Source: Streptomyces pristinaespiralis
GTDB taxonomy: Bacteria > Actinomycetota > Actinomycetes > Streptomycetales > Streptomycetaceae
Length of the DNA: 64,000 nucleotides
NCBI RefSeq assembly: GCF_001278075.1
Contig: NZ_CP011340.1
Location: 4,216,001-4,280,000 of the forward strand
Reading direction: 5' to 3'
Positions 16,267 to 40,022 of this stretch are shown here, one piece after another (positions within the stretch are counted from its first letter, which is position 1; each line of letters starts with the position of its first letter). Position numbers and translations under genes: made by a program. The notes below the pieces were generated by a model. The model had not been told where the DNA came from. It searched no databases and was given only the letters and a program-made list of their open reading frames with translations.

Positions 16267-16276
16267 AGGTGGTTCG

Positions 16277-16853: not shown

Positions 16854-16865
16854 ATCTTCCGCCTC

Positions 16866-17319: not shown

Positions 17320-17329
17320 GCCGGTGGCG

Positions 17330-17595: not shown

Positions 17596-17666
17596 GCCGA
17601 CGGAGCGGCGCCCGGTGGTGCTTCTAGGGGCCCTGGCGATGTGTCCCGTGCTTGCTGTGGGGCGCG

Positions 17667-17777
17667 TTACTGCTTCAAGGCGGCCTTGAAGATCTCGGCG
17701 ACCTCGTGTTTGACGGCGTAGACCCACAGCGGATCGGTGTCGGCGATCCGCATGGAGGCGGGAAAGTCCCTAGCCAT
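17667..17777 (-). CDS. 36-residue ORF, possibly phage-derived
   Basis: ATG at 17777, GGAAGG 11 bp upstream. It reads MARDFPASMRIADTDPLWVY followed by AVKHEVAEIFKAALKQ: compact, amphipathic and with natural coding composition. It lies between a terminase remnant and a gene-poor stretch. I do not recognise the family; a small phage or element protein is the likeliest source. Confidence 0.45.
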   Translation of the reverse strand: MARDFPASMRIADTDPLWVYAVKHEVAEIFKAALKQ

Positions 17778-20522: not shown

Positions 20523-20987
20523 ATGGACATGCCTGATGTGCGGATCGGCTTCAATTCTGATGATCGCCGAAGGTCCTGGTGGCGGAACGGCCTTGTGACG
20601 CTGGCGCTTGCCGGTGTGATGGTGGCGATGATCCTGTCCACGCATGAGCCGAGCAAGTGGTGGTTTGTGGGTGGCCTTGGAATCCTTGCTGTGGTCGCTT
20701 TTGTCGGCACGGTCAACCTGATCTATGGCCGGGTCCTCTTGACCGCGAGGGGCCTGGAGTTCCGCACCTTTGTCAGCAGGCGGATCATCCCCTGGAACGA
20801 GGTCGCCGACATCGAGACGCGGCGGCGGGCTGTCCGGAGCAGAGTCTTGTGTGATCTGCGGGTCGTCAGGGTTCGCGGGCGGTCGCTCACGATTCCGGGA
20901 ACGGCCACCAGCCGGGTGATGGATGCCGAGCTTGAGCGGAAGCAGCTAGCCATCCGGGAGGGCTGGTCCCGCGCAGTCGGCGGCTGA
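20523..20987 (+). CDS. Membrane protein with bacterial PH-like domain
   Basis: 154 residues from ATG 20523. Two adjacent hydrophobic helices (GLVTLALAGVMVAMIL; WFVGGLGILAVVAFVGTVNLIY) are followed by a PH-like beta region (LLTARGLEFRTFVSRRIIPWNEVADIETRR), where the WNEVADI motif is typical of actinobacterial bPH proteins. Function unknown; such domains are usually membrane-associated. The start is uncertain because the frame is open to 20235 and 20172 and no strong ribosome site is present. Confidence 0.6.
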   Translation: MDMPDVRIGFNSDDRRRSWWRNGLVTLALAGVMVAMILSTHEPSKWWFVGGLGILAVVAFVGTVNLIYGRVLLTARGLEFRTFVSRRIIPWNEVADIETRRRAVRSRVLCDLRVVRVRGRSLTIPGTATSRVMDAELERKQLAIREGWSRAVGG

Positions 20988-21397
20988 TGGAGCTCATGCG
21001 GCGAGGGCCTCGGCTGCGGCGGGGAAGGCGACGGCCTCGTCGAAGAGCTGCAGCCAGACGTACACCTGGCGCCGGCAAGTCCAACCTCCATGCCGTGGCG
21101 GTGGCCGACGAGTGCCATGACGTGCCCCGTCTGTCCGAAGGCCTCATGGGCCAAGCCGACCGTATGCATCCACCGGCACCTGCACGGCCACCACCACTCG
21201 AACGGCCTGCCGGACTACTCGTCCTGCCGAGCCGGAGGCGGCCGCCTGCCCGGCTCGTGGGAGACGGACGCCTGCCCCGTCGTCGGAGGCGGCCGCATGC
21301 CCGGCTCGTCGGAGGACGGCGCCGCCCCGGCGCGCGGGCGTCCGGCAGCGGACGGCCTCTGCGGGCGGCGCGCCCACAGAGGCCGGTACTCCTGCGC
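20988..21397. other. Gene-poor stretch with a possible gene end
   Basis: On the minus strand, about 25 codons ending at 20994 read RQVYVWLQLFDEAVAFPAAA and look like the C-terminus of a lost gene; no start or remainder is visible. The rest holds short direct repeats (GGAGGCGGCCGC-type, 21233-21300) and no supported gene. Confidence 0.35.
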
Positions 21398-21676
21398 CTA
21401 GCCCATGTAGTTGTAGATCGGCCAGAACTGCGGCGTCGGGGGCGGGCCCCCCGCTCCGACGGCCTGGAAAGCAGGGACGAGACGTTCCTTGAGGAATCGC
21501 TTCGCGTCGTCCTCCGACTCCCAGATCTCGATGACCCGCCATCCACCGTCCGGGCCCGGACCGGCGGCGTGGAAGATGCCGCCCGCGGGCTTCTCCTCTA
21601 TGCCCAGATGATCCCTGATCCTGTCGTAGATCTCCTGTGTACCGTGTGGGTTGTCCACCAGCATGGCGACCGCCAT
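21398..21676 (-). CDS. ABM-type dimeric alpha/beta-barrel protein
   Basis: 92 residues, antibiotic-biosynthesis-monooxygenase-like (ferredoxin-fold dimer). Motifs: AVAMLVDNPHGTQEIYDRI, PAGGIFHAAGPGPDGGWRVI, EIWESEDDAKRFLKERL. Members may be monooxygenases without cofactor or simple sensors. ATG at 21676 with GAGGAGG 6 bp upstream. Its start shares a base with the stop of the upstream hydrolase remnant (TGATG), so the two were once an operon. Confidence 0.75.
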   Translation of the reverse strand: MAVAMLVDNPHGTQEIYDRIRDHLGIEEKPAGGIFHAAGPGPDGGWRVIEIWESEDDAKRFLKERLVPAFQAVGAGGPPPTPQFWPIYNYMG

Positions 21677-22044
21677 CACTGCCTCCTCGTGATCGGTTGT
21701 CCGTTCCCCGAGTGGTCGTACGGCGTGCGGTGAAGTGGTGTGCCGATCTCCGTCCGCAGTGGGTGCGGGAAGGCTTCGGGCCGTTCGAAGGCGGGGTCGT
21801 CCGCGGCGTTCTCGAGCACGTGCGGCGGGCATCCGTACCGGGCGCTCGCGGCCTGCGTGCCCCACAGCCGCACCTGAGGGTCGTGCCTCCCGCAGATCAA
21901 GGTGGCGGGTACGGCGATCCGTGCCAGGCCGGCCGGGACCGGGGTCGTCGCGAACTCCGGCACGAGGCGTCGGCCGGGAACCCGGTGAGCAGCCGGTCGC
22001 TGATCGCCGCCTGCGTGGCACGTGTTCATCGTTGCCACCTCCAT
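21676..22044 (-). pseudogene. Alpha/beta hydrolase remnant (C-terminal, frameshifted)
   Basis: Reads IAVPATLICGRHDPQVRLWG and RYGCPPHVLENAADDPAFER, the Asp- and His-loop side of an alpha/beta hydrolase. Upstream, the expected AAISDRLLTGFP sequence is in another frame, so one base was lost or gained near 21975. The nucleophile half is absent; LuxR-type regulator and a short intergenic region follow. Confidence 0.6.
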
Positions 22045-24597: not shown

Positions 24598-25848
24598 CTA
24601 CGCGGGGGCCGCCTCCGTCTCCGGGACGGCCTCTTCCGCCGGTTGCGCCTCGGCCGCTCCGTCCCGGCTGATCAGGCAGATGACCGCGCACACCGCCGCC
24701 ACCGCGGCGGCGGCGTACCAGTTGGCGCCCGGGACACCCAGGGACAGCGACAGGTCGAACAGGACGCCGGCAAGGAGCGAGCCGACCATGTTGCCCGCGC
24801 TGCGGAAGAAGTGCATGGCGCCCATGGCCTTGGCGAGCCGCTGCTCGGGGACCTTGCGGGCGACCCAGATGTCGAAGGACGGCACGAAGAGGACCTCACC
24901 GAGGACGACCACGAGGCAGCCGACGATCACCCAGGCGGCACTGCGGCCGGCTCCGAAGGCGAGGAAGGCGGCGGTCATGCCGGCCAGGCCGACCGCCATG
25001 ACCGCGCCGGGACGCAGGTGCTTGATCAGGAACTTGAAGAGGGGGTACTGGAGCACCAGGACGCTCAGGCCGGTGATCCAGAACGGGGCGGACGGCGCCC
25101 ACTGCGGCGCGTACTCCTCCATGTGCAGCGGAATGCCGACGAGGAAGCCGATCGACAGGAACCAGAACACGGCCGAGAGCAGGAAGTAGCGCGTGGCTCC
25201 CCGCACGTCGATGCCCTTGAACACGGTCAGGCTGAACAGCGGCTTGCGTGCCTGCGCCGCCTCGGCCGCCCGGGCGTCGGCAGCCTCCCGCGTCTCGAAC
25301 CCGTCCCGGGGGATGAAGGCCGAGGACGCGAGGCAGAAGCCGATGAAGATGGCGAACACCACGCTGAAGAGGGTGCGCAGATCCACGTCGGCGAGCAGAC
25401 CGCCCAGCAGCGCACCGCCGAACAGGCCCACCTGCGCGGACATCTGGAAGGTGGAGAACGCCTTGGGCCGCTCGTCGTCCGGGTAGGAGACGAGGATGTT
25501 CTTCAGGCCGGGGAACGCGGTTCCGGAACCGAAGCCGATGAAGAACGCGAGCACGCTGTAGACGAGCACGCCGCCGCTGAAGCCCATGGCGCCCAGCGCC
25601 ACCGCCTCCATGGCGGTGCCGAAGAACACCGCCCCGCGGATGCCGATGCGTGCCGCGGTCCCCTCGTAGAAGAACGTGGCGAGCAGGCGGCCCACGTACG
25701 TCATACACATGACCACGCCGGCCCAGAAGCCGCTGTCGGTGCCGCCGAGCGAGGCGAGGAGTACGGGGAACCAGATGAAGTTCCCGATGTGGGCGAGGAA
25801 GATGCCGGCGTTGACGCCGATGAGCGCCCGCCTGCGTTCGATGGTCAT
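24598..25848 (-). CDS. MFS transporter (product exporter of the AmCP cluster)
   Basis: 416 residues, about 12 membrane helices, with the MFS loop between helices 2 and 3 as FFYEGTAARIGIRGA and a cytoplasmic middle loop (FIPRDGFETREAADARAAEA). The C-terminus is Ala/Glu/Pro-rich. The start ATG overlaps the amidohydrolase stop (ATGA), so it is the last gene of the biosynthetic operon and most likely exports the product or gives self-resistance. Confidence 0.85.
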   Translation of the reverse strand: MTIERRRALIGVNAGIFLAHIGNFIWFPVLLASLGGTDSGFWAGVVMCMTYVGRLLATFFYEGTAARIGIRGAVFFGTAMEAVALGAMGFSGGVLVYSVLAFFIGFGSGTAFPGLKNILVSYPDDERPKAFSTFQMSAQVGLFGGALLGGLLADVDLRTLFSVVFAIFIGFCLASSAFIPRDGFETREAADARAAEAAQARKPLFSLTVFKGIDVRGATRYFLLSAVFWFLSIGFLVGIPLHMEEYAPQWAPSAPFWITGLSVLVLQYPLFKFLIKHLRPGAVMAVGLAGMTAAFLAFGAGRSAAWVIVGCLVVVLGEVLFVPSFDIWVARKVPEQRLAKAMGAMHFFRSAGNMVGSLLAGVLFDLSLSLGVPGANWYAAAAVAAVCAVICLISRDGAAEAQPAEEAVPETEAAPA

Positions 25849-27170
25849 AGCGCGACCTTTCCCTTGGACTCGGTGGCGCGGAGGTCCGCGATGGCGCGCG
25901 CGACGGCGGGCCGGTCGACCGGCACGCCCTGGACGACGGTGGACAGCGGCAGTGCCGTGAGCGGCCTGCCGGGTGCGTGCAGGTTGTAGGTGGCCTGCGC
26001 CCCGGGGCGCAGGGGCCCGGCCCCGGAGGTGTCGCCGCGCAGTTCGTCGAAGTAGCGGCGGCCGCCGACGGTGGCCTGCCGGCGCAGCGCCTCGGTGACC
26101 GAGGCGTCGTCGCCGCGCAGCAGTTCGAGCTCACTGAGGAGGGAGTAGCCGTGGTAGGCACCGGTGTTGCCGGAGTCGGTGCCGACGAGCAGATTGCCGT
26201 GGCGCAGTGCGGTGAGGGCGTTGCGCCGCATGTCGGCCAGTGCGGCGGTACGGGTCTCCTGGCAGCCGTACTCGATCCCGAAGGGCTTCTCGATGCCCTC
26301 GACGAAGTCCAGGTTGCCGCGGTCCTGGGTCTCGGCGAATCCCTCGCGGCCGTAGTCGGCGAGGAACTCCTCCCGGGTCATGACCATGGGGCTCAGCCCG
26401 GCCAGGGTGGAGACGAACCGGGCTCCCTCGAGCCGCTTCCAGTCGGCCGCGTCCAGGGTCCGGTCCCGCACGGAGTGGGCGAAGAGCCGGAACCCGCAGT
26501 CGTACGCCCAGAGGGTCTCCTGCAGGGTGTTGCAGTCGATGACCGCGGTGATCCCACGCTCGGCGGCGATCCGGGCGGTGAACTTGAGGACCCGCTCGGA
26601 CAGGCGGGAGAAGCGCACGGGGGTGCCCGGCTGCTCCGTGCCGTCGGTGAACATGACCTTGAGGAAGGTGCCGCCCCGCTCGGAGTTGGTGCGCAGCGCG
26701 TGGTCCAGGTCGGCCTCGACGGCGAGCATGTGCACGGGCGCCGGGAACTCGACGCCGTGCCCCCGGAGCCCGGCCGCGTTCGTCATCGCCGTCACCGCGT
26801 AGCCGCAGTGGGCGATCTCGGGATACGGCCAGGGCGAGGTGCGGCTCCCGGCTTCCCAGGCGTCGGACACCAGGGGGAACCCGAACATGTCCACCACGTG
26901 GGTGACCCCGTGGTAGAGGTACTGGAGGGCGACGATCCGCGGGTCGTCGACGGTGTCGTCCCAGTTGGCCGGCAGCGACACGTGAGCGTGGGTCTCGGTG
27001 TAGCCGGGCCACAGCTCCGTCTCACCTCCGTGGCGGGTGCCCGACGGTTCGATGCGGGTGAAGACGCCGTCCTCGGTGGTCACGTCGAACAGCGCCTCGT
27101 CGTCGAGGGCGGGCACGGCCACGCCCCGGAGGGTCGCGGGCGGCGCCTGGCGGTAGACGGTCGCGCTCAT
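25845..27170 (-). CDS. Amidohydrolase-superfamily protein
   Basis: 441 residues. The metallo-hydrolase barrel begins with LWPGYTETHAHVSLP (HxH metal motif, about residue 60), has GTFLKVMFTDG (candidate carbamylated Lys) and LLVGTDSGNTG (metal Asp). The first lone His of the family is not obvious: the strand reads VIDCNTLQE, while the second is present in LFAHSVRD. So it may bind one metal or act on an unusual substrate. Start overlaps the ATP-grasp stop by 4 bp. In the cluster it could cyclise, trim or deprotect the amino-acid or peptide product (inference). Confidence 0.75.
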   Translation of the reverse strand: MSATVYRQAPPATLRGVAVPALDDEALFDVTTEDGVFTRIEPSGTRHGGETELWPGYTETHAHVSLPANWDDTVDDPRIVALQYLYHGVTHVVDMFGFPLVSDAWEAGSRTSPWPYPEIAHCGYAVTAMTNAAGLRGHGVEFPAPVHMLAVEADLDHALRTNSERGGTFLKVMFTDGTEQPGTPVRFSRLSERVLKFTARIAAERGITAVIDCNTLQETLWAYDCGFRLFAHSVRDRTLDAADWKRLEGARFVSTLAGLSPMVMTREEFLADYGREGFAETQDRGNLDFVEGIEKPFGIEYGCQETRTAALADMRRNALTALRHGNLLVGTDSGNTGAYHGYSLLSELELLRGDDASVTEALRRQATVGGRRYFDELRGDTSGAGPLRPGAQATYNLHAPGRPLTALPLSTVVQGVPVDRPAVARAIADLRATESKGKVAL

Positions 27171-28420
27171 CGGGCCACGTCGACCTTCATCCGCAGGTCG
27201 ATGCCGTCGAGGGCCGCCTCGCACCGCTTGTTGACCTCGGCGCGGTCGGCGCCGGTGAAGATGATGTGCCCGATCCAGTCGAAGTTGGAGCGGGAGAGCC
27301 GGGTGACCGGGGTGCCCGGCTTCTTGTAGGCCAGGGCGCTGTGGAAGCCGGGAAGCTCCTCGATGGCGTCGAAGCCGATGGCGTCGACCGTGCCGGCGAC
27401 GGGGGCGCCGAACCAGTGGCCGCCCGCGGTGGTCTCACCGGGGAAGGGGAGTTCGGGCCGCTCGCCGAGAGCCTGCCGGATGACCTCCAGGTAGGGGTCG
27501 ACGCCGGAGGTGATCTGCATGAGGCTCGGCACGATCCCGCCGATGAGACGGCCGTTGACCTCGCACAGCACCGGGCCGTCCGCGCTGAGCAGGTACTCGG
27601 TGTGGATGAAGCCGAAGTCGACGCCGAGTTCGTTCAGTACGCGGGTGGTGGTGGCGAACAGCTCGTCCTGGAGCGGGTGTCCGCTGAAGTAGGTGGCACC
27701 CATCTCGATGAAGTGCGGGAAGCCGCTCAGCGGCCGGTCGGTGAGGCCGAGGTTGACGACCTCGCCGTTGCCGAGGACGCAGGACTCCACCGAGATCAGC
27801 TCTCCGGTGACGAACTCCTCGATGAGGATGTCCGGGATGCGTACGACGCCGCGGCCGTAGTCGACCACGTCCGCCAGCTCGGCCAGGTAGTCACGCAGGT
27901 CCTGCTCGTCCTTGAGGTGCAGGACGTGCAGGCTGGCCGTGCCGTCGGAGGGCTTGACCACGCACGGGAAGCCGATCTCCCGGACGGCGGCCTCGACCTC
28001 GGCCGGGTCCGCGACGTGGGCGAAGCGCGGCTGCCGTACGCCGGTGCCGTCCAGGGTGGTTCGGGTCAGGTGCTTGTGCCGGGCGTTGCGGGCGCCCTCG
28101 ACGCTCATGCCCGGCAGGCCGAGCGCCTCGGCGACCGCCGCGGTGTGCACGGTGTGGTACTCGCTGTAGGTGGTGACGCCGTGGACCGGCTTCTCGGCGT
28201 GCAGGTTGCGCGCGAGGGCCGTCAGGTCCTCGATGGAGAAGGCCTGCTCGCTCTTGATCACCTGGCACTTGGGGTGCGCGTAGGCCGCCTCGGCGAGGGG
28301 CGAGACACCGAGGTAGAAGTCGGGGTCGACCGACACGAGGGTGACGTCGTGCCCCAGTTCCAGGGCGTTGGCGATGCCGGCGATCCCGTTGGGGTTGCAT
28401 TCGATCATGAGGATATGCAC
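27167..28420 (-). CDS. ATP-grasp ligase
   Basis: 417 residues, biotin-carboxylase-like ATP-grasp fold: preATP-grasp domain ILMIECNPNGIAGIANALELG, then FPCVVKPSDGTASLHVL (P-loop-like Lys), LIEEFVTGELISVE, and the metal loop VLCEVNGRLIGG. Such enzymes form amide or peptide bonds through acyl phosphates, e.g. L-amino acid ligases. GTG start at 28420 with AGGAG 9 bp upstream. It is separated from the transketolase gene by a 127-bp repeat-rich gap, then coupled by ATGA to the amidohydrolase. Likely joins the AmCP-made amino acid to a partner. Confidence 0.8.
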   Translation of the reverse strand: MHILMIECNPNGIAGIANALELGHDVTLVSVDPDFYLGVSPLAEAAYAHPKCQVIKSEQAFSIEDLTALARNLHAEKPVHGVTTYSEYHTVHTAAVAEALGLPGMSVEGARNARHKHLTRTTLDGTGVRQPRFAHVADPAEVEAAVREIGFPCVVKPSDGTASLHVLHLKDEQDLRDYLAELADVVDYGRGVVRIPDILIEEFVTGELISVESCVLGNGEVVNLGLTDRPLSGFPHFIEMGATYFSGHPLQDELFATTTRVLNELGVDFGFIHTEYLLSADGPVLCEVNGRLIGGIVPSLMQITSGVDPYLEVIRQALGERPELPFPGETTAGGHWFGAPVAGTVDAIGFDAIEELPGFHSALAYKKPGTPVTRLSRSNFDWIGHIIFTGADRAEVNKRCEAALDGIDLRMKVDVAR

Positions 28421-28465
28421 GGTGCGTACTCCTGAAGTCTCGTGGTCAATGCGCAGGGCGTTCGT

Positions 28466-28506
28466 ACGTGGTGCGTGTCGTGCGTGGTGCGTGGTGCGTG
28501 TCGTGC
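28466..28506 (+). repeat. Short direct repeat between transketolase and ATP-grasp genes
   Basis: An 18-bp unit GTGGTGCGTGTCGTGC-type occurs at 28466-28483 and 28489-28506 with one mismatch. It fills the only sizeable gap in the otherwise overlapping operon and may be a processing or attenuation site, or mere slippage. Confidence 0.6.
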
Positions 28507-28547
28507 ATGGTCGGGTACGGGCGGCTCCCGGCGCCCGGGGCGGCGGC

Positions 28548-29495
28548 TCAGCCGGCGGCGGCCCCCGCGAAGGCCGCCGGCGCCCCGGAGGACGCCCTGT
28601 CCACGGCCGCGAGCACCGCGGGCAGGTCGAGGCCGAGTGAGGCCATGACCTCCTCGTGGTCGCCGCCCTGGAAGGGCCAGCTCTGGTCCGCGCTCACCGA
28701 CGTGACCTCGCAGCGAGGCATCAGCAGCGCGAGCCCCTCGGCGACCCCGCCCTGACCCCGGTGCTCCTCGACGACGACGAACCGGGTGTGGTGGCGGGCA
28801 AGTTCGGCCGCGGCCGCGCTCAGGTGCGCGTGGTCGAGGCGGAGCAGGTGCGCGTGTGCGGTGCCGGGCGCCGCCCGCCGGGCCTCCATGGCCAGACGGG
28901 TGCCCTCCTCCCCCACCGACACCAGGCAGACCGCCTCGGGTCCGGCGCGGAACTCCCAGTTGACGAGGGGCGGTTGCTCTCCCGGCCAGTCGATCGAGTC
29001 GTACGCGGCGTTGCGTCCGGTCCGGATGTAGTGCGGGGTGCCGGAGCGCACCGCGGCCCGGACCACCGCGCGCATCTCGGCCTCGCCGTACGGGGCCGCG
29101 ATGGTCACGCCGGGGACGCTGCGCAGGATCGCCAGGTCCTCCAGGCAGTGGTGGGTGGTGCCGAACCACGCTCCGGAGACACCCGCGTAGGGCGCCATGA
29201 CGGTGACCCCGGCGGAGAGGTAACCGAGGGTCAGCTTCAGGCTCTCCGCCGCCCGCAGGGCCGCGAACGGCGCGAAGGTGCTGGCGAACGGCTTGTAGCC
29301 GCCCGCGGCGAGGCCCGCCGCCATGTCGACCATGGCGCCTTCCGCGATGCCGAGGTTGAAGAACCGTTCGGGATGGGCGGCCTGGAAGGGGTGGCCCTTG
29401 CCTCCCAGGTCCGCCTCCAGGCACACGATGGACCCGTCGTCGGCGGCGAGCCTGGTGAGCTCGTCCCGGTAGGCGTCCCGGCCGGAGAGAGTCAT
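28548..29495 (-). CDS. Transketolase, C-terminal subunit
   Basis: 315 residues: pyrimidine-binding and C-terminal domains of a split transketolase. The catalytic Glu is in FFNLGIAEGAMVDMAAGLA, with the phenylalanine-rich FASTFAPFAALR loop and HRGQGGVAEGLALL in the third domain. Start ATG overlaps the N-subunit stop (ATGA). With the N-subunit it moves a C2 ketol unit onto an aldehyde; in this cluster the expected acceptor is LysW-bound glutamate semialdehyde. Confidence 0.88.
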   Translation of the reverse strand: MTLSGRDAYRDELTRLAADDGSIVCLEADLGGKGHPFQAAHPERFFNLGIAEGAMVDMAAGLAAGGYKPFASTFAPFAALRAAESLKLTLGYLSAGVTVMAPYAGVSGAWFGTTHHCLEDLAILRSVPGVTIAAPYGEAEMRAVVRAAVRSGTPHYIRTGRNAAYDSIDWPGEQPPLVNWEFRAGPEAVCLVSVGEEGTRLAMEARRAAPGTAHAHLLRLDHAHLSAAAAELARHHTRFVVVEEHRGQGGVAEGLALLMPRCEVTSVSADQSWPFQGGDHEEVMASLGLDLPAVLAAVDRASSGAPAAFAGAAAG

Positions 29496-30307
29496 CGGAC
29501 GGCTCGCTTCCACTTGGCGGCGCGCGCGGCGTCGATGGTCACGTAATGGGAGGCGGCCTTGCCCTCGACGGCGGGTACGCCCTTCCCCTTGACGGTTTCG
29601 GCGACGACGGCCAGCGGCCGGCGGGCCGTCGAACGGTCCCCGGCGAACAGGTCCGTGAGAGCCGCCAGGTCGTGCCCGTCGGTCTCCGCCACCTCGAACC
29701 CGAAGGCGGCGAACCGCTCGGCGAGGCGGGGCAGCGGCGAGATGTCGGCCACCGGCCCGTCGTTCTGTCCCCCGTTGCGGTCCACGACGAGCACGAAGTT
29801 GCCCAGCTCCTGGGCGGCGGCGACCTGGCAGGTCTCCCAGACCAGGCCCTCCTGGAGCTCGCCGTCACCCGCGACGGCGATACCGAGCCCCGGCCTGCCC
29901 GCGATCCGGCGGGCCAGCGCCCACCCGGCCGCGTACGGCACCCCGTGGCCGAGGCTCCCGGTGGGGAAGCGGACGCCGGGCACCTTGGGGCCGGGGTGGC
30001 CGGTGTAGGGCCCGCCCGCCTGCCCGTAGAGCGGGGCCGGGTTCTCCGGCAGGACGCCGCTGACGTGCAGGGCGGCGTAGAGGCCGGCGGCCGCGTGGCC
30101 CTTGCTCAGCACGACCTCGGTGCCGTCGCCTGCCGAGACCCGGTGCAGCGCCGCGATCAGGATGTCGAGCACGGACAGGCTGCCGCCGAGGTGGCAGCCG
30201 CGCGGGCTCGCGGCCATGTCGACGACCAGCCGCCTGGCCTCCACCGCGCGTGCGGCGAGGGTGGCAAGGACCGGCACCGTCCGTGGCGCGTCGAGTACGG
30301 CGGTCAT
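29492..30307 (-). CDS. Transketolase, N-terminal (TPP-binding) subunit
   Basis: 271 residues: the thiamine-diphosphate domain of a split transketolase. HLGGSLSVLDILIAAL, SKGHAAAGLYAAL, and the TPP-Mg motif starting AVAGDGELQEGLVWE and ending about 25 residues later near VVDRNGGQNDG. Start shares one base with the stop of the kinase-hydrolase gene (TGATG). Split transketolases are typical of archaea and of secondary-metabolite clusters, such as those of the AmCP type. Confidence 0.9.
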   Translation of the reverse strand: MTAVLDAPRTVPVLATLAARAVEARRLVVDMAASPRGCHLGGSLSVLDILIAALHRVSAGDGTEVVLSKGHAAAGLYAALHVSGVLPENPAPLYGQAGGPYTGHPGPKVPGVRFPTGSLGHGVPYAAGWALARRIAGRPGLGIAVAGDGELQEGLVWETCQVAAAQELGNFVLVVDRNGGQNDGPVADISPLPRLAERFAAFGFEVAETDGHDLAALTDLFAGDRSTARRPLAVVAETVKGKGVPAVEGKAASHYVTIDAARAAKWKRAVR

Positions 30308-32157
30308 CAGCGGCTCCCTTCGGGCAGGGCGAACCATCGGTTGACGGCGTCGGCGAGCAGCGAGCGGGCGGTCCGGTACTCCATGCCGCCGATGCGCTCC
30401 TCGTCGGTGTGGTCGAGGGAGGAGTCGCCGGGCCCGTACGCCACCATCGGCACGTCGTGCCAGGTGGTGGCCAGCGTGTTCATGTCGGAGGTCCCCTTCT
30501 TCACCACGAAGCGGGGCCTGATCCCGGCATCGGCGAAGGCCCGGGTGAAGACCTTGACCAGCGGGCCGGAACGACCGCCGGCGTAGCCGGGGGTGGCGCG
30601 CAGCACCTCGATCCCGACGCCTTCGCGGACATGGCCGAGCGCGGCGGCACGCAGCGCTTCGAGGTCGGCCGAGGGCGGCACCCGGAAGTTGAGGATCCCG
30701 GTGGCGCGGTGCTGTTCCCGCCCGGTCGCGCAGCTGATGTCGATGACCGCGCTCAGGGCGTCGGGCGCCTGCTCGAGGACCGAGGCACGGATCTCGGCGA
30801 GGGCCGCGGTCAGGTGGTCCGGGGCGGACACCGCGTCCATGCCGGCCGAGTGCCCGCTGGGTACGGACGCGGTCACCTGGAGCTTGAACAGCCCGTAGTA
30901 GCCGAGGGTCAGGGTCCGCGCGCCGCTGGGCTCACCGATGACGACGGCGTCGGCCGGATAGTGGTCGCGGACGTGGAAGGCGCCCTTGGACGAGGAGATC
31001 TCCTCCTCGACCGCGCCGATCGCGCACAGCTGGCCGTCCTCCGGGATGTCCGCGTGCGCGAGCACCTCCAGGAAGGTCGCCAGGCTGCCCTTGGCGTCGA
31101 CGCTGCCGCGGCCCCACAGCTCGTCCTCGCGCCACTCGGCGGGCCAGTGGTGCGGCACCGTGTCGAGGTGGCCGAGGAGCAGCAGCCGCCGGGGGCCGTC
31201 GCCGCGGGTCGCGACCAGGTTCCCCGCCTCGTCGATCCTGGCCCGCATGCCGCGCTCCTGGCACCACTCGGCCAGGAAGGAGGCGAGCTCCGCCTCGTCG
31301 CCGGAGACCGACGGCACGGAGACGAGCCGGGTGAGCAGGCTGAGGTCGGCGGCGGGTTCCCTGGTGCGCCAGAAGCGGGTCCAGCCCGCCGGCTCGGTCA
31401 TGGTGTGCGGACCGGTGACGGCCACGTCCGCGCTGCCCTCCAGGGCGATCTCGGCGGCGCGGACCTTCTGGCGCATCCTGCCGCCCGCGTACTGCGCGCC
31501 GTCGCCCGGATAGGCGTTGCACAGCGTGGAGCGGGGGTCGTCGGGGTCGGTCAGCAGTCCGGGCGTGCCGGTGACCAGCCGCAGGTGGTCGGCGTGCAGG
31601 GCGTTGGAGAGGACCGCGGCGAGAACGTCGGCGTCGACGTTCAGCGGCGGCTCGCCGGCCCGGCCCGCCACCGGCGGCGACAGGCAGACCACGTCGTACG
31701 CGTCGAGCAGGGCGTTCAGCCGTACGGTGTCGACGTCGGCGGGCACACCGGCGCGGTGGTCGCGGACCACGAGGGGGCGGCCTTCGGCGGAGAGCGCCTT
31801 CAACGGCCGGTTGGCCCGGCCGGTCACCAGGCCGCCGCGGGCGGCCACGGCGGTGAACACGCTCAGCCCGAGCGTCCGCAGGGCCTGCTCGACGGCGGGC
31901 AGGGTGACCCGCTCGTAGGCGTCGACCAGGTGCGCCATCTCCTCGGGCGGGCAGTAGCGGACCGAGTCGCCGTTCGCCAGCCGCAGTTGCGGAATCGGTC
32001 GGCCGATCGCCGCGTAGTGCCGTTCGATGCCGGTGGCGCCGCCGGTGACCAGGAGCACCCGGGCACCGCGGGCCACGATGTCGGCGATCTCCTTGTGGAT
32101 GGTCTCGCGGTCGAGCGTCGCGCTGCCGACCTTGATCACGTAGAGGGGCCGGGTCAT
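30307..32157 (-). CDS. LysZ-type amino-acid kinase fused to LysK-type M20 hydrolase
   Basis: 616 residues with two enzymes. Residues ~1-265: ArgB/LysZ kinase (VIKVGSATLDR, LLVTGGATGIERHYAA, NVDADVLAAVLSNAL, GGRMRQKVRAAEIA), expected to phosphorylate the gamma-carboxyl of LysW-glutamate. Residues ~272-616: M20/ArgE-LysK metallopeptidase (LLLGHLDTVP metal site, GRGSVDAKGS bridging Asp, VEEEISSSKG general base, VVIGEPSG metal Glu), expected to release the finished amino acid from LysW. Start ATG overlaps the reductase stop (ATGA). Step 2 and the last step of the carrier pathway are thus in one chain; in the known pathways they are normally separate proteins. Confidence 0.88.
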   Translation of the reverse strand: MTRPLYVIKVGSATLDRETIHKEIADIVARGARVLLVTGGATGIERHYAAIGRPIPQLRLANGDSVRYCPPEEMAHLVDAYERVTLPAVEQALRTLGLSVFTAVAARGGLVTGRANRPLKALSAEGRPLVVRDHRAGVPADVDTVRLNALLDAYDVVCLSPPVAGRAGEPPLNVDADVLAAVLSNALHADHLRLVTGTPGLLTDPDDPRSTLCNAYPGDGAQYAGGRMRQKVRAAEIALEGSADVAVTGPHTMTEPAGWTRFWRTREPAADLSLLTRLVSVPSVSGDEAELASFLAEWCQERGMRARIDEAGNLVATRGDGPRRLLLLGHLDTVPHHWPAEWREDELWGRGSVDAKGSLATFLEVLAHADIPEDGQLCAIGAVEEEISSSKGAFHVRDHYPADAVVIGEPSGARTLTLGYYGLFKLQVTASVPSGHSAGMDAVSAPDHLTAALAEIRASVLEQAPDALSAVIDISCATGREQHRATGILNFRVPPSADLEALRAAALGHVREGVGIEVLRATPGYAGGRSGPLVKVFTRAFADAGIRPRFVVKKGTSDMNTLATTWHDVPMVAYGPGDSSLDHTDEERIGGMEYRTARSLLADAVNRWFALPEGSR

Positions 32158-33215
32158 GGCGACACCGCCGTGGTGGGCAGTCCGGCCGTCTCGTCGAAGC
32201 CGAAGATCAGGTTCATGGCCTGGACGGCCTGGCCGGCAGCGCCCTTGATCAGGTTGTCGAGGGCGGCCACGGCGACGCACTGGCCGTCGCGGACCGCGAT
32301 CGCGACCTCGGCGACGTTGGAGCCGACGACGGCCTTGAGCATGGGGAAGTCCTGCGGCACCTTGGGCGCCGGGCGGACCCGCACGAACGGCTTGCCGACG
32401 TACGCCTTGGCGTAGGCGCGCTTGACGTCCAGCGCCGAGACACCGGGCCGCAGTTCGGTGTACGCGGTGACCATGATGCCGCGGGCCACGTCGAGGCTGT
32501 GGGTGGCGAACCGCAGGTCCATGGCGGCGCCGGTGTAGTCGGCGATGGCCTGCTGGACCTCCGGCGCGTGCCGGTGCCCGTACAGCTTGTGGACCCGGAA
32601 GTTGCCGCTGCGCTCCGCGGGCGGCTCGTTGCCGCCGCGGCCGCCGCCCGTGGAGCCGGTCTTGGCGTCGACGACCACACGGTCGGCCACGAGCGACCGG
32701 GCGAACAGCGGGAACAGGGCGTAGACGCTGGTGACGGCCATGCAGCCGGGCAGGCTGATGAACCGGCTCTCCGGGACGCCGTCGCTCAACTCCGGTATGT
32801 AGTAGGCGAAGTCCTCCGAGGGCGGGTTCGCCGCGGTCCTCGGATAGTGCGTCAGGATCTCCGCGCCGTCCCGCAGGCGGAAGTCGCCGCCCAGGTTCAC
32901 GACCCGCTTGGCGTGCTCGGCGATCAGCGGCAGTTGCTCCGGCAGAGCGCCGGTGGGCAGGCAGCCGAAGGCGATGTCGACGGTCCCGCTGTCCGCCAGC
33001 TGCGCCAGGGGACGGAACTTGAGGCCGGCCGCCTTGGGATGGTTGCGCAGCCAGGGGTGGACGCTGCCGATGGTGGCGCCCGCGCTGCGCTCCGCGGAGA
33101 GGAAGGCGAGCTCGACGTGCGGGTGCTCCAGCAGGAGCCGGATCATCTCGCCGCCGGTGTAACCGCTGGCGCCGATGACGGCGACGCGGATCGTCTCGTG
33201 AGAGGTCTCAGCCAA
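32154..33215 (-). CDS. LysY/ArgC-type semialdehyde dehydrogenase
   Basis: 353 residues. NADPH Rossmann motif VAVIGASGYTGGEMIRLLL at the start; catalytic Cys in FISLPGCMAVTSVYALFP; later GSTGGGRGGNEPPAERSGNF and HRHAPEVQQAI. It reduces the LysW-glutamyl phosphate to the semialdehyde. No ATG/GTG lies near the conserved start; a TTG at 33213-33215 inside the DegT stop region, with GAAGG 10 bp upstream, is the best start. Overlaps the upstream aminotransferase gene by 8 bp. Confidence 0.88.
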   Translation of the reverse strand: MAETSHETIRVAVIGASGYTGGEMIRLLLEHPHVELAFLSAERSAGATIGSVHPWLRNHPKAAGLKFRPLAQLADSGTVDIAFGCLPTGALPEQLPLIAEHAKRVVNLGGDFRLRDGAEILTHYPRTAANPPSEDFAYYIPELSDGVPESRFISLPGCMAVTSVYALFPLFARSLVADRVVVDAKTGSTGGGRGGNEPPAERSGNFRVHKLYGHRHAPEVQQAIADYTGAAMDLRFATHSLDVARGIMVTAYTELRPGVSALDVKRAYAKAYVGKPFVRVRPAPKVPQDFPMLKAVVGSNVAEVAIAVRDGQCVAVAALDNLIKGAAGQAVQAMNLIFGFDETAGLPTTAVSP

Positions 33216-34527
33216 GACGGGCCGCCTTCTCGTACGGGCGGCGGTGGTCGCCCTCTTCGACGAGCTTCCTGATGGCGTCCGGGCGCCGGGCGACCTTCCG
33301 GAAGGCGTCGGCGTAGCGCAGGATGCGCTCGTACTCGACGGGGGAGCGCAGCTCACGGCAGAGGACCAGGGTGCTGTCCAGCATCCCCAGGGTGACCGGG
33401 AAGTCCTCCGGCCGGTGGTCGCGCACGGCTCCCGGGTTGAGGGAGAACGGGTAGCCGCCCCCGAAGCCGTCCCGGTGCCGGAAGGGCAGGTGGCACGGGA
33501 TCGGGGTGTTCTGCCACTCACGGGCGGGGACGCCCTCGGCGACGAGCAGTTCGTGCACCGCTTCCTTGACCGCGTGCACCGGGAGGTCGCCCAGGCCAAC
33601 GGCGTCCGGGTGCAGGGTCATCCGGTACATGTTGTAGGCGTGCACGTGCCCGTCCGGTACGTGCGGCGGGGTGAACAGGCCGGTCTCGCTCAGGGCCTCG
33701 CCGATCAGTGCGGCGTTACGGGCCCGGATCTCGTCGTAGTAGGGCAGGCGTGCCAGCTGGCTGGTGCCGAAGGCCGCGGCCACCCACGACATGCCGTAGT
33801 CGATGCCGTGCCGTTCGAGATAGGCGACGGCCCGGTCGTACGCCTCCTCCGTGGCGAAGAAGGCGATGCCGCCCTCGCCGCCGAGCGGGAAGTTCTTGTC
33901 GGCCATCAGGCTCTGGCCCGCGGCGTCGCCGAAGGAGCCGGCCAGCCGGTCGCCGATCTTCGCGGAGTGGGCGTGGGAGGCGTCCTCGACGAGCGCGATG
34001 CCGTGGCTGTCGGCCAGGGCGCGCAGCGCGGGAACGTCCGCGGGCAGACCGTGGACATGCACCGGCATGAGCGCGCGGGTCCGGTCCGTGATCGCGGCTG
34101 CGGCGGCCTGCGGGTCCATGCAGTACGTGACCGGGTCGATGTCGACGAACACCGGGATCGCGTGGGCGGCGACGACGGCCTGGGCGGTGGCGATGAAGGT
34201 GAACGCCGGGACGATGACCTCGTCGCCCGGCTGCACACCGGCGCCGACCAGGGCCATGTGCAGGCTGGAGGTGCCGCTCGCGGTGGGCAGGGCGTACCGG
34301 GCGCCGACGTAGGAGCGGTAGGCCTCCGCGAAGCCGGTGACGACCTTCTCGGGCGTCTGCCGCTGGGCGAGCATCAGGTTGAAGACGTCTTCCTTGGTGA
34401 TGACCGGGAAGAGCGTGCGGCGCATGGCCTTGGGGATCATCGCCCCGCCGCCGAGTGCGGCGAGTTCGGCCTCGAGGTCCGCGGCGTCGGGGAGCGGCAG
34501 CGGTGCCGCCGGGAAGTCAGTGATCAT
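33208..34527 (-). CDS. DegT/DnrJ/EryC1 aminotransferase
   Basis: 439 residues, fold-type I PLP enzyme. ALPTASGTSSLHMALVGAGV, GDEVIVPAFTFIATAQAV, LVEDASHAHSAKIGDR, and the Schiff-base Lys in SLMADKNFPLGGEGG (about Lys211). In the carrier pathway it would transaminate the keto group made by transketolase, giving the second amino group. Start ATG shares one base with the stop of the smaller DegT-like gene (TGATG). Confidence 0.85.
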   Translation of the reverse strand: MITDFPAAPLPLPDAADLEAELAALGGGAMIPKAMRRTLFPVITKEDVFNLMLAQRQTPEKVVTGFAEAYRSYVGARYALPTASGTSSLHMALVGAGVQPGDEVIVPAFTFIATAQAVVAAHAIPVFVDIDPVTYCMDPQAAAAAITDRTRALMPVHVHGLPADVPALRALADSHGIALVEDASHAHSAKIGDRLAGSFGDAAGQSLMADKNFPLGGEGGIAFFATEEAYDRAVAYLERHGIDYGMSWVAAAFGTSQLARLPYYDEIRARNAALIGEALSETGLFTPPHVPDGHVHAYNMYRMTLHPDAVGLGDLPVHAVKEAVHELLVAEGVPAREWQNTPIPCHLPFRHRDGFGGGYPFSLNPGAVRDHRPEDFPVTLGMLDSTLVLCRELRSPVEYERILRYADAFRKVARRPDAIRKLVEEGDHRRPYEKAARLG

Positions 34528-35171
34528 CAGCGTGCTCCGGAAGTGGCGGCGGGACGCGCCGCTCGGGTCAGGGCCATCCGTGCGCAGGCGGCCACGAGGG
34601 GGCTCAGCCGGTAGTTGAACTGGACGCCGGGCACCAGCGAGGCGTCGGCCTCCTCCTGCGTCCACATCGTGCGCAGGTCGTAGGCGCCGAAGATCTTCAG
34701 CCGCTCGGCGCGGGCCCAGAGCCCGGCGTCGTCGGTCAGCACGGCCGCCGCCGGCCCGAAGCCGAGTCCGGTCAGGTCCACGACCAGCGCGGGGGCACTC
34801 GCTCCGGCGGCCAGTTCGGCGAGCCGGTCGGCGTTGGTCGCGTCCAGTGCCACATGGTCGTAGGCGATGGGGCGCGGGCCGTCCTCTGTTCCGGCCCGCT
34901 CCACGGTGACGCCGAGCCAGTTCAGGAACGCCTCGGTGGCCGCGTCCGGCTCGGGCAGCGACACGGTGTCGCCGTGGCCGATGCCCTGGCCGGCGAGGGC
35001 CGCGTGGACGGCACCCGTACGGCTGTTGAGGAGGACCGCCTTCGCGCGGCCGGTCTGCTTGGTCAGCAGCCTTTCCAGACCGGGCAGTTCCCGGTCGCTC
35101 TTCTCGATGCTCATGACCACGCCCGAGGTGAGGACGCGGGTGAGCACCGTCGCTGTGTCGAACAGTTCCAT
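34527..35171 (-). CDS. Truncated DegT-like protein
   Basis: 214 residues, half the usual length. The segments ERLLTKQTGRAKAVLLNSRTGAVHAALAGQG (SGT-type cofactor loop reads SRT), GDTVSLPEPDAATEAFLNWLG and RLKIFGAYDLRTMWTQEEAD align in order with the large domain of DegT aminotransferases; the whole C-terminal domain is missing. A Lys is present (LKIFG) where the PLP Lys region would be. ATG 35171 is preferred (ACGGAG 8 bp upstream); a GTG at 35189 overlapping the ligase stop is possible. Its position beside the full DegT gene suggests a heterodimer or regulatory subunit. Confidence 0.7.
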   Translation of the reverse strand: MELFDTATVLTRVLTSGVVMSIEKSDRELPGLERLLTKQTGRAKAVLLNSRTGAVHAALAGQGIGHGDTVSLPEPDAATEAFLNWLGVTVERAGTEDGPRPIAYDHVALDATNADRLAELAAGASAPALVVDLTGLGFGPAAAVLTDDAGLWARAERLKIFGAYDLRTMWTQEEADASLVPGVQFNYRLSPLVAACARMALTRAARPAATSGAR

Positions 35172-35185
35172 GGGTCGTCTCCGTG

Positions 35186-36055
35186 TCACGCGGCAACGGC
35201 CGCCAGCTGCTCCGCGACGTAGGCGGCGAGGTGGCCGGCCACGTTGACGCCGTGCTGGGCGGAGGAGCGGGCGAATTCGGGGTTGGCATTCACTTCGAGC
35301 ACGAGCAGCTCACCGGTGGTCCGGTCCTCGACCAGGTCCACTCCGTAGAAACCGGGGCCGAGGATGTCGACGACGTTGCCGCAGAGCTTCTCGATCTCCG
35401 CGGTGACCTCGATCCGCCGGACCTCCGCCCCGAGGTGGGTGTTGGTGCGCCAGTCGGTCGAGACGCGCTGGATCGCCACCACGGGGGTGCGTCCGACGAC
35501 CACCACGCGCAGGTCGTGACCGGGCTTGTCGATGTACTCCTGCACGACGACGGGGAAGAGCTTCCCCGCGGCGTCGGCGGACTCGCGGCCGCCGGCCCAG
35601 GCCTCCACACACTCCGCGTTGGCCATCTTGGTGACGCCGCGCCCCCAGGACCCGCTCACGGGCTTCACCACGGCGGGCAGGCCCAGTTCGGCGACGCTCG
35701 CGTGCACCTGCTCGTAGCTGAAGGCGTGCCGGGTGACGGGGTGCGGGACGCCGTGGCGCTCGAAGAGCAGCGCCTGGAGCCCCTTGTCGTTGCAGGTCTC
35801 GATGGTCGAAGAGCGGTTGAGGGTGGTGGCTCCGGCGTGCTCGAGCCGGCGGGAGACGCTGATCGCCTCGCGGTGGGAGAGGTTCCTGATGAGGACGAGA
35901 CCGGGCGGGCCCGTGCGGCCCGCCACGACCTCGGCCAGATCCTTCACGAGCAACGGCCTTGCCGTCAGACCCTCGTCACGCAGTGCGCCGAGAAGGAGCT
36001 TCTCGTCCGGGCGCAGCATCGTGACCGAGAGCAGGACCTGGTCGGCGGATGTCAC
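35186..36055 (-). CDS. LysX/RimK-type ATP-grasp ligase (loads the carrier protein)
   Basis: 289 residues. RimK-like fold: HREAISVSRRLEHAGATTLN, LPAVVKPVSGSWGRGVTKM (ATP loop), VVQEYIDKPGHDLRVVVVG, and the C-terminal metal/product loop LVLEVNANPEFA. In lysine/arginine AmCP pathways this enzyme joins the alpha-amino group of glutamate or aminoadipate to the C-terminal Glu of LysW. The GTG start overlaps the LysW stop by 4 bp (GTGA), which ties it firmly to its carrier. Confidence 0.9.
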   Translation of the reverse strand: MTSADQVLLSVTMLRPDEKLLLGALRDEGLTARPLLVKDLAEVVAGRTGPPGLVLIRNLSHREAISVSRRLEHAGATTLNRSSTIETCNDKGLQALLFERHGVPHPVTRHAFSYEQVHASVAELGLPAVVKPVSGSWGRGVTKMANAECVEAWAGGRESADAAGKLFPVVVQEYIDKPGHDLRVVVVGRTPVVAIQRVSTDWRTNTHLGAEVRRIEVTAEIEKLCGNVVDILGPGFYGVDLVEDRTTGELLVLEVNANPEFARSSAQHGVNVAGHLAAYVAEQLAAVAA

Positions 36056-36240
36056 TCGCCCCAGTCCTCTTCCACCTCGGGGGCGAGGTCCAGCCGCGCG
36101 CCGGCGGCGGACTTCTCGACGACCTCGTGCTCCTGGCCACAGGCCGCGCACTCGGTGATCTCGCCCTTTTCCCAGGCTTCCTGAACCTCGAATTCCGTGT
36201 CGCACACGAGGCATTTCGGAGCCGCAATGGCGGTGGTCAT
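36052..36240 (-). CDS. LysW-type amino-group carrier protein (AmCP)
   Basis: 62 residues. N-terminal zinc ribbon (KCLVCDTEFEV ... ECAACGQEHEVV), acidic C-terminal half, and the hallmark C-terminus EDWGE, whose final Glu gamma-carboxyl carries the substrate in known AmCP systems. ATG at 36240 with AGGAG 9 bp upstream. First gene of the cluster operon. Because LysX, kinase, reductase and hydrolase genes follow, this is an AmCP pathway rather than an orphan; presence of transketolase indicates secondary metabolism, not lysine/arginine synthesis. Confidence 0.95.
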   Translation of the reverse strand: MTTAIAAPKCLVCDTEFEVQEAWEKGEITECAACGQEHEVVEKSAAGARLDLAPEVEEDWGE

Positions 36241-36414: not shown

Positions 36415-36567
36415 TCAGACCCAGCCCGGGTCCTGCGGACCCGAGGTTCCGCTTCCGGCGACCGCGGCCCGGTCGGCGTCGGCCGGCGCGACGGAGAAGG
36501 CGATCAACGCGGCGGCGGCGATCATGCACGCCGCGACGTATTTGCGTGAGCGCGAGATGTACTTCAT
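36415..36567 (-). CDS. 50-residue secreted peptide precursor at the head of the AmCP cluster
   Basis: Sequence begins MKYISRSRKYVAACMIAAAA, then LIAFSVAPADADRAAVAG and ends SGTSGPQDPGWV. Basic n-region, hydrophobic core and an AxA-like cleavage site (about residue 31) give a classical Sec signal; the mature part would be ~19 residues ending DPGWV. The ATG at 36567 has GGGGGG 9 bp upstream. It lies between LysW and the divergent regulator, same strand as the cluster, 174 bp before LysW. No family known to me; signalling peptide is a hypothesis. Confidence 0.6.
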   Translation of the reverse strand: MKYISRSRKYVAACMIAAAALIAFSVAPADADRAAVAGSGTSGPQDPGWV

Positions 36568-36707: not shown

Positions 36708-37739
36708 ATGTGCAGCAAACGGGATATAGGCGACGACAACACACATGTGGAGATCTGTGGTGACGGAGTGGCGGTCTACCGGACCGCCCTCGTGGACGGC
36801 AGGGTGGCGCGGACCGCGACCCCCTCGTGCCTTCCCGCGCTCGGTCTGCTGGTACCGGCGGTCGACGATCCCGAGGCCATGGTGCCCGTACCGCCGGCCG
36901 TCGCGGAGACGACGCTGGTGCGTCCCCTGGAGCGGCGCGTCCGTGAGCAGCAGCAGACGGTGGCCGCTCTCCGCGCGTCCATGTCCCAGGTCGAGGGCGT
37001 CTACCGGAGCCTGCGGGAGGGGAGCCACGCCGTCCAGCGGCTCACGGGAGCGGCGATGATCGCCGCCGCGGTGGAGGCGGAGGCGCAGTCCGCCACACGG
37101 GAGACGCTCACCGCGCATCCCGGCGGCGGCCGTCCGGAAGAGGTCCTCGCCAAGTCCCTGTCGTACACGCTGGAGGCCAAGAAGCGGGGCGTACGGCAGC
37201 GCACGCTGTACCAGCACACGGTGCGCACGCACGGCCCGACGCTCGACTACATCAAGGCGGCCACCAGCGCCGGCGCCGAGGTGCGCACCGTCGACGAGGT
37301 CTTCGACCGGCTGCTGATCTGGGACCGCTCCGTCGCCTTCATCCCCGACATGGGCAAGGAGCATCACAACCACGCCCTGAGAGTCACCGACCCGGGCATC
37401 GTGCACTTCCTCGTCTCCGTCTTCGAACACGCCTGGGACCGGGCGGAACCGGTCGTCTACGAGCCCGACCAGCAGCGCCCCAAGATCCTCACCGACGAGA
37501 CCCGCCGGCGCGTGCTGCGGCTGATGGTCGACGGTTACACCGACGCCGCCATCGCCGCCCGGCTCGGCATGAGCGTCCGTACCGTGGCGACCCATCTGAA
37601 GAAGGTGTCGGACGCGCTGGGCAGCAAGAGCCGGGCGCAGCTCGCGTATCTGACCGCCCAGAGCGGTCTGCTGGACGGATCCCCGGGCCCGGACTGCCGC
37701 TGCGGCGGCACGGACCAGCACGACTCCGTGCACGACTGA
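36708..37739 (+). CDS. LuxR-type regulator divergent from the AmCP cluster
   Basis: 343 residues. The first ~70 residues are a small beta domain, residues ~75-260 include a helical TrmB/PLD-like region (RRVREQQQTVAALRASMSQVEGVYRSL; YQHTVRTHGPTLDYIKAATSAGAEVRTV; FIPDMGKEHHNHALRV), and residues ~270-330 a LuxR helix-turn-helix (LTDETRRRVLRLMVDGYTDA; AIAARLGMSVRTVATHLKKVSDAL). ATG at 36708 with GAAGGGGGCGG 5 bp upstream. This architecture is common next to Streptomyces biosynthetic clusters, so it is the likely pathway-specific regulator. Confidence 0.82.
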   Translation: MCSKRDIGDDNTHVEICGDGVAVYRTALVDGRVARTATPSCLPALGLLVPAVDDPEAMVPVPPAVAETTLVRPLERRVREQQQTVAALRASMSQVEGVYRSLREGSHAVQRLTGAAMIAAAVEAEAQSATRETLTAHPGGGRPEEVLAKSLSYTLEAKKRGVRQRTLYQHTVRTHGPTLDYIKAATSAGAEVRTVDEVFDRLLIWDRSVAFIPDMGKEHHNHALRVTDPGIVHFLVSVFEHAWDRAEPVVYEPDQQRPKILTDETRRRVLRLMVDGYTDAAIAARLGMSVRTVATHLKKVSDALGSKSRAQLAYLTAQSGLLDGSPGPDCRCGGTDQHDSVHD

Positions 37740-39422: not shown

Positions 39423-40022
39423 GTTGGCTACCTCGATGGCGCAGGACCGGCGCGGAGGGGTGTGCGCCGGTCGATGTGCGGGCTTTGAGCGAACGCCGTT
39501 GTCCGATCGGCGACCCGGGGCGGGCGGTCCGCGGACTCGGACCGTGATCACCCTGGTCTTGCTGCCGGCCCGGAGCCGGCACTCCGCGCCGCGGCCGAGC
39601 GGGGCCGCCGACGGAGTTGCGCATGTCTACCACGCCCGTCACGGGATCATGAGTGACCTGGATCACATGACGGTAGGTAACCTGTAAAGCCGCAGGCATG
39701 GTGACGGGATCGTTATCCGGAAACGAAGAACCGTGTAACGGACACGTACAAAAGAGGAAGTGGCGCCGTCCGAGGACGGGGCAGCCGTCCCGTCGCACCG
39801 GACCGGTCAGGACCTGCGGGACTCCTACCACGCGATATGCCGGGGGGATACCCGGTCAGGTGGCACTGAAGAGGTGCGAAGACTGCCGGAACCCGGCAAT
39901 GAAAGGCCATCCCGTCGGCTGGGAGCATGCGTTGCGACGTCCGGCCCGAACCGGTCACGGCCTGGCCGTACAAGTGAACGATGATCACACTGCGTGGCGG
40001 CGCCCGCCTCCACGCCGGTCGT
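39423..40022. other. 600-bp intergenic region
   Basis: Upstream region of the symporter gene. It contains a CRP-like site (39653-39666). I see no RNA structure that fits a known riboswitch and no supported gene. Confidence 0.4.
39653..39666. promoter_or_regulatory. CRP-like palindrome
   Basis: GTGA-CCTGGA-TCAC, the core half-sites of CRP-type operators with the right 6-bp spacer; Streptomyces Crp sites follow GTG-N6-GNCAC, so this is one base off. It may control the symporter gene, but the promoter is not located. Confidence 0.35.

Follow-up and report, generated by a model that had tools for sequence, protein, structure and literature searches.

A 64-kb window of the Streptomyces pristinaespiralis genome (a single contig of 8.53 Mb; contig positions 4216001-4280000), the whole stretch of DNA analysed here, carries eleven consecutive minus-strand genes (36240 to 24598). 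The best explanation of the whole, to which we give a probability of roughly 65%, is that this operon encodes a complete amino-group carrier protein (AmCP) pathway leading to an exported metabolite. The core product is quite likely a C7 diamino acid, and the exported compound would be a dipeptide containing 2,6-diamino-5,7-dihydroxyheptanoic acid (DADH). The operon represents a widespread variant of AmCP secondary metabolism, recognisable by a defined signature.

The genes follow the order lysW, lysX, small DegT, large DegT, argC, kinase-M20, TKN and TKC (the two transketolase subunits), ATP-grasp, amidohydrolase-like and MFS (major facilitator superfamily) (Table 1). All the genes named in the initial annotation are present on this strand, and its observation that most are joined by overlaps of 1–8 bp applies to eight of the ten junctions (4, 1, 8, 4, 1, 4, 4 and 4 bp). 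The two non-overlapping junctions measure 14 bp (LysX/small DegT) and 127 bp (TKC/ATP-grasp). Start codons were assigned by synteny for argC (TTG) and the small DegT gene (ATG), and families were called with Pfam and NCBIfam profiles together with the nearest relatives in the PDB.

Two unequal DegT chains

The initial annotation listed 'DegT proteins'. Both genes do belong to this family, but they are not equivalent: the first, encoding 214 aa, lacks the pyridoxal phosphate (PLP) lysine. We aligned both proteins with the DegT chains of ficellomycin-like clusters (type B, see below). The large protein has the PLP lysine in 26/26 rows, with 32 residues from the lysine to the next conserved motif, as opposed to 47–48, and the Asn of this motif is replaced by Asp (26/26); about 15 residues are missing relative to the type B chains. 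One large DegT frame, broken in its record (locus L038), was excluded from the motif count. The small protein shows a gap at the lysine and retains the 47-residue spacing and the Asn (QFNYR) in all 27 rows, while lysine, full spacing and Asn are all intact in the six type B chains. The same large and small motifs recurred in six further loci outside the alignment. A sequencing truncation of the small gene was ruled out by these 27 rows, which span two phyla, and by its solved homologue.

In homodimeric DegT enzymes, the hairpin and the Asn extend into the active site of the partner. Because the large chain keeps the lysine and the small chain keeps the hairpin and Asn, the conserved residues indicate that the two proteins are very probably complementary halves of a single active site.

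Homologues of both chains are found in PDB entries 8y96–8y98, with six chains of each type across the three entries; 8y96 is titled 'heterooligomeric aminotransferase from Serratia sp. ATCC 39006'. The large protein matches 8y96 chain A at 603.4 bits (58% identity) and the small protein matches chain C at 215.6 bits. The Serratia large chain shows a spacing of 32 and the Asp, and chain C lacks the lysine and bears the Asn, whereas Fic25 (8gyh–8gyj), a single chain of the same family with the lysine, has a spacing of 48 and the Asn. A DegT hetero-oligomer is thus already known in structure and the split is precedented, although in another phylum; by homology to 8y96, the operon pair would also form a hetero-oligomer. 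An AlphaFold model of the large chain alone was poor (predicted local distance difference test score (pLDDT) 45.6), and the fold search was used for entry titles only. No paper on the 8y96 enzyme was found in the open-licence literature, which is weak evidence of absence.

Carrier and core enzymes

By family, the AmCP set is complete, comprising carrier, LysX ligase, kinase, ArgC/LysY reductase and M20 hydrolase. The two-subunit transketolase and DegT genes adjoin it, as in AmCP secondary metabolism of the DADH type; an AmCP route to DADH is in print, as described in the accessible parts of PMC9303977 and PMC9570651. The 62-residue LysW ending in EDWGE, picked out earlier from the sequence, was confirmed: it has four cysteines (positions 10, 13, 31 and 34) and matches Zn_ribbon_LysW (PF21344) at 38.1 bits against a cut-off of 27, and a C-terminal W/F-G-E is conserved in every LysW row found. 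LysX exceeds the cut-off of rimK_fam (200.9 against 143.4 bits), its nearest PDB relatives are 3vpd and 1uc8 ('lysine biosynthesis enzyme'), and the genome holds a single strong copy. The ArgC-type reductase scores 288 bits with TIGR01850 (cut-off 233.6). TKN is closest to the split-chain transketolase 6yak and contains the GDG...N motif.

The kinase-M20 protein exceeds the cut-offs of PF00696, PF01546 and TIGR01902, with 4q7a, 5xoy and 3u6u as nearest PDB relatives. The fusion is retained in 26/26 related loci of the window type, one open match spanning both domains, and would place both activities on one carrier-binding protein.

A duplicate housekeeping arginine or lysine AmCP pathway would also include the ArgC, AA_kinase and M20 families. 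Against this, the genome has another argC (396 bits), together with an argB (249.5 bits), near 6.94 Mb, ~2.7 Mb from the operon, both scoring higher than their operon counterparts; the operon is therefore not the arginine pathway, and a housekeeping arginine role was ruled out. Such a pathway would have no use for a transketolase, a DegT protein or the ligase. The distribution of LysX is also narrow for a housekeeping gene: among 392 congeneric genomes (E ≤ 1e-40; six candidates per genome scored, so that the counts are lower bounds), at least 21 had a match, 15 of them at 66–100% identity, the own genome included, and six at 36–40%. We consider a housekeeping duplicate extremely improbable. 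With argC and argB elsewhere, the earlier assignment to AmCP secondary metabolism, with a split transketolase and DegT in the cluster, stands, and the orthology of all genes to a housekeeping lysine/arginine pathway, which had been named as the counter-case, was not found.

Separation from ficellomycin-type clusters

A link to the DADH route of vazabitide-, azinomycin- and ficellomycin-type compounds had been proposed. This holds in that the operon appears to encode an AmCP pathway of the DADH-making kind, but its lineage is separate from that of the Fic25-type loci. We grouped seven such loci (L054–L060) as type B. A single-chain DegT occurs in the six of them where a DegT was found, and these six are 50–53% identical to the Fic25 stretch, compared with 33–39% for the window type. 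Because of this identity, and because the title of 8gyj describes Fic25 with a PLP-(5S,6S)-N2-acetyl-DADH adduct, type B is regarded as ficellomycin-like.

Gene trees of TKN (24 rows), ArgC (23 rows) and LysX (24 rows), built from 17 window-type loci and the type B loci, each split the window type, Bacillota included, from type B at 100/100; the trees are unrooted, and in each of them the Staphylococcus epidermidis row sits on a long branch. In all six type B loci where both could be checked, kinase and M20 are encoded in different frames; the seventh, L059, shows the M20 part only. No small DegT match was found in the seven type B loci. The window operon has neither the single complete DegT chain nor the separate kinase and hydrolase genes of type B. 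By its sequences, it is a lineage apart from the ficellomycin-type clusters.

An ordinary vazabitide/ficellomycin-type cluster, making DADH for an azabicyclic (aziridine) compound, would account for the LysW, LysX, ArgC, kinase, M20, TKN, TKC and DegT families, which are common to the type B loci. It conflicts with the split in all three trees, the single kinase-M20 frame of the window type and the distribution of the small DegT (0/7 in type B). Moreover, the eleven operon genes gave no sulfotransferase or NRPS (non-ribosomal peptide synthetase) match, consistent with the initial remark that no sulfotransferase gene is visible. Trees and gene structure led us to reject the plain vazabitide/ficellomycin type, which we regard as very unlikely. 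In one type B cluster (L054, 14579-14935), a 119-aa gene without a match lies between lysX and the single DegT gene.

Published systems share parts of this gene set. In the accessible parts of PMC9303977 and PMC9570651, vazabitide A, s56-p1 and azinomycin involve an AmCP or N-acetyl route with kinase, reductase, transketolase and aminotransferase to DADH. As far as the available text of PMC9303977 states, s56-p1 and vazabitide A are non-ribosomal peptide products, whereas the window has an ATP-grasp ligase. The iso-Maleimycin gene cluster BGC23a of Streptomyces sp. QL37 likewise contains LysW and RimK genes, whose joint deletion abolishes the product; it differs in the 2-isopropylmalate synthase and AMP ligase named there (both statements from the accessible part of PMC12022981), neither of which matched among the eleven window genes. 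Among the titles and abstracts listed from the open-licence literature, none dealt with a LysW cluster with transketolase, DegT and ATP-grasp genes, again weak evidence of absence.

Conservation and tailoring genes

The eight core genes occur on one strand and in the same order in 31 of 32 related loci, and all eleven genes in 23 of 32 (best tblastn match); the sole locus without the full core (L033) begins inside the cluster at a contig end. This count omits same-contig repeats (L053, L068, L073 and L074) and L062, whose contig ends after lysX. The amidohydrolase query retrieved 20 of the 32 loci, from Streptomyces, Kitasatospora, Glycomyces, Actinorhabdospora, Sphaerimonospora and a record labelled Microtetraspora, so that its presence in these is by construction.

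Tailoring differs among loci. In 11 of the 15 genomes with LysX at ≥66% identity, the core is followed by ATP-grasp and amidohydrolase genes, some retrieved stretches ending before the MFS gene. Two carry an amino-acid permease behind the core and gave no ligase or amidohydrolase match: the S. camelliae plasmid record, where a short-chain dehydrogenase/reductase gene comes next, and genome G359, with an ORF resembling the S. camelliae permease. One has a different ATP-grasp gene upstream and a contig ending inside TKC, and in one the contig ends after lysX. The permease clusters point to a free amino acid as the product of the core by itself.

The window ATP-grasp ligase matches LAL_C2 (PF18603) at 45.3 bits against 29.4 and exceeds the cut-off of ATP-grasp_4 (PF13535); its nearest PDB relative is the L-amino acid ligase BL00235 (3vot, E 1e-22), followed by BacD. 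BL00235 is a dipeptide-forming enzyme. Because it is the nearest solved relative, the earlier proposal that the ligase joins the amino acid 'to something' can be narrowed towards a dipeptide, the simplest product for an enzyme of this type, which we judge to have about an even chance of being correct.

For the gene annotated as an amidohydrolase, a motif and a low-confidence fold are the basis of that name; profiles of Pfam (E 0.001) and NCBIfam (up to E 10) gave no match. Among word-sharing candidates it has 75 homologues at E ≤ 1e-10, none below 53% identity and one a 299-aa partial sequence, and H61, H63, K171, D212, H232 and D332 are invariant in ten rows. The model lies nearest to prolidase and Arg-carboxypeptidase folds and was used as a hint only.

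These genes also bear on a different product, a DADH-like or cyclic (pipecolate-type) free metabolite or antimetabolite. The ATP-grasp enzyme would then make an intramolecular amide or protect an amine, and the amidohydrolase would reverse this for self-protection. The permease clusters without a ligase fit such a product, as do the 4-bp overlap of the amidohydrolase and ligase genes in the window and the resemblance of the low-confidence model to dipeptidases and prolidases. The kinship of the ligase with BL00235 and the MFS gene behind the amidohydrolase gene speak against it, and we hold a free metabolite to be the less probable outcome, at perhaps one chance in a few.

Occurrence beyond Actinobacteria

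Used as a tblastn query against plasmids, the small DegT matched three records, from S. camelliae, Pseudalkalibacillus hwajinpoensis and Staphylococcus epidermidis NCCP 16828. Both Bacillota plasmids show the same order of lysW, lysX, small and large DegT, argC, M20, both transketolase genes and ATP-grasp, and their M20 gene matches the fused kinase-M20 protein over its length. Their ATP-grasp enzymes are only 23–28% identical to that of the window. On the S. epidermidis plasmid, which comes from a blood isolate, the eight-gene core is accompanied by an ATP-grasp gene, with an MFS gene close by (L051, 10285-19005; NZ_CP043848.1). By sequence alone, the Serratia large chain has relatives at 59–80% identity named Kosakonia, Paenibacillus, Lactiplantibacillus plantarum and Chromobacterium subtsugae. 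When 396 genomes of the phylum were surveyed for the small DegT, the own genome was the sole match, a lower bound, as seven candidates per genome were scored.

Upstream peptide ORF and regulator

A 50-aa ORF, signal-like at its N-terminus and ending in DPGWV, is located between lysW and a divergent LuxR-type gene. A similar ORF, mostly ending in D-x-G-W-[PGAV], precedes lysW in 17 of 33 other loci (15 different contigs), and was not found in the other 16, one of which (L034) has only 57 bp upstream. Such an end occurred in 0/391 reverse-strand frames of the same upstream regions; the motif was picked after the first sequences had been seen. Over 30 pairs of related peptide rows, codon-position differences numbered 242 at the third, 175 at the first and 153 at the second position. 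Elsewhere in the own genome, a DPGW-type pattern (TGA stop only) occurs at four places, none within a signal-peptide ORF by our filter. The peptide gave no credible NCBIfam match, and no relevant paper on the DPGW motif was found in the open-licence literature.

Among the 20 loci L031–L050, where upstream DNA is short, 10 show a LuxR match upstream of lysW, as do eight of the nine loci L066–L074. Two loci (L041 and L066) have a LuxR match and no such peptide was found there, which argues against a pairing of the two. The features of the ORF are compatible with an exported signal, which we regard as possible. In another locus (L083, 2659-2856), a small signal-peptide-like ORF with DDKW lies near a LuxR paralogue (35% identity) in the same genome, perhaps another such pair.

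Proposed pathway

In the AmCP pathway that we favour, LysX would join the amino group of glutamate to the Glu at the C-terminus of LysW. Judging from the families, the kinase domain of the fused protein would phosphorylate the side chain and ArgC would reduce it to the semialdehyde. The two-subunit transketolase may then add a two-carbon ketol unit to give a C7 ketone, which the DegT pair would aminate at C6, with PLP on K211 of the large subunit and the hairpin and the Asn at position 186 contributed by the small subunit. Release by the M20 domain would yield free DADH or a stereoisomer of it, which the ATP-grasp ligase would join to another amino acid; the amidohydrolase-like enzyme may trim, cyclise or detoxify the amide, and the MFS protein would export the product.

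Several points weigh against this scheme. LysW and LysX score below the NCBIfam equivalog cut-offs: all LysW matches lie under theirs, and LysX reaches 224.5 bits with LysX_arch (275.6). The fused protein likewise scores 298.5 bits with the [LysW]-lysine hydrolase model (363), and the LysZ-type kinase, LysX and LysK-type hydrolase equivalog models match, all under their cut-offs. The choice of glutamate over aminoadipate follows from transketolase logic. For the azinomycin azabicycle an N-acetyl-glutamate route is reported in the accessible part of PMC9570651, so that the carrier is not the only printed route. The model of the amidohydrolase-like protein is poor (pLDDT 54), and the protein has an Asp at the position to which a weak alignment (E 0.03) assigns the beta-5 His. 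The permease of the permease-type clusters could be an importer, and the low identity of the Bacillota ATP-grasp enzymes makes different couplings possible.

Neighbouring features

Elsewhere in the window, a 1568-aa minus-strand protein (40659-45365) with T7SS_signal, RHS repeats and an Ntox28 C-terminus looks like a polymorphic toxin and is followed by a 202-aa pentapeptide-repeat protein (40023-40631). A tRNA-Arg (ccg) gene lies near the cluster (39522-39609, minus strand). The region 14000-22000 has few ORFs with typical third-position GC, and a scan of seven ORFs from 15164 to 20019 gave no Pfam match.

Table 1 Genes of the operon and adjacent features (window coordinates)
Feature	Position	Strand	Family or nearest relative
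LysW-type amino-group carrier protein, 62 aa, C-terminus EDWGE	36052..36240	-	PF21344
LysX/RimK-type ligase, 289 aa, GTG start	35186..36055	-	rimK_fam; PDB 3vpd, 1uc8
DegT small subunit, 214 aa, without PLP lysine, NYR segment kept	34527..35171	-	8y96 chain C homologue
DegT large subunit, 439 aa, PLP lysine K211, shortened hairpin, D243 at Asn position	33208..34527	-	8y96 chain A homologue
ArgC-type reductase, 353 aa	32154..33215	-	TIGR01850
Fused amino-acid kinase and M20 hydrolase, 616 aa	30307..32157	-	PF00696, PF01546, TIGR01902
Transketolase N-terminal (thiamine diphosphate) subunit, TKN, 271 aa	29492..30307	-	PF00456; PDB 6yak
Transketolase pyrimidine-binding subunit, TKC, 315 aa	28548..29495	-	PF02779
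ATP-grasp ligase, L-amino-acid-ligase type, 417 aa	27167..28420	-	PF18603, PF13535; PDB 3vot
Amidohydrolase-like protein, 441 aa	25845..27170	-	motif and low-confidence fold; no Pfam match
MFS transporter, putative exporter, 416 aa	24598..25848	-	PF07690, 107.6 bits
Secreted-peptide-like ORF, 50 aa, ending DPGWV, possible accessory	36415..36567	-	similar ORF before lysW elsewhere
Divergent LuxR-type regulator, probable pathway regulator	36708..37739	+	PF00196

Discussion

Taken further, the data would fit a broader picture, which we put forward as speculative and rather unlikely in its entirety. A mobile eight-gene core with an obligate two-subunit aminotransferase would supply Actinomycetota, Bacillota and Proteobacteria alike with a C7 diamino acid, and lineage-specific ligases and exporters would turn it into different peptide antimetabolites. 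The actinobacterial version would add an undescribed amidohydrolase family and be switched by an exported D-x-G-W-x peptide signalling to LuxR.

The operon would set a DADH-type pathway beside peptide ligation that is free of NRPS. Its sequence illustrates how a homodimeric aminotransferase may divide into a complementary pair, and the signature of its lineage, a fused kinase-hydrolase together with a lysine-less DegT partner, can be mined for beyond Streptomyces, including on a plasmid of a human skin staphylococcus.

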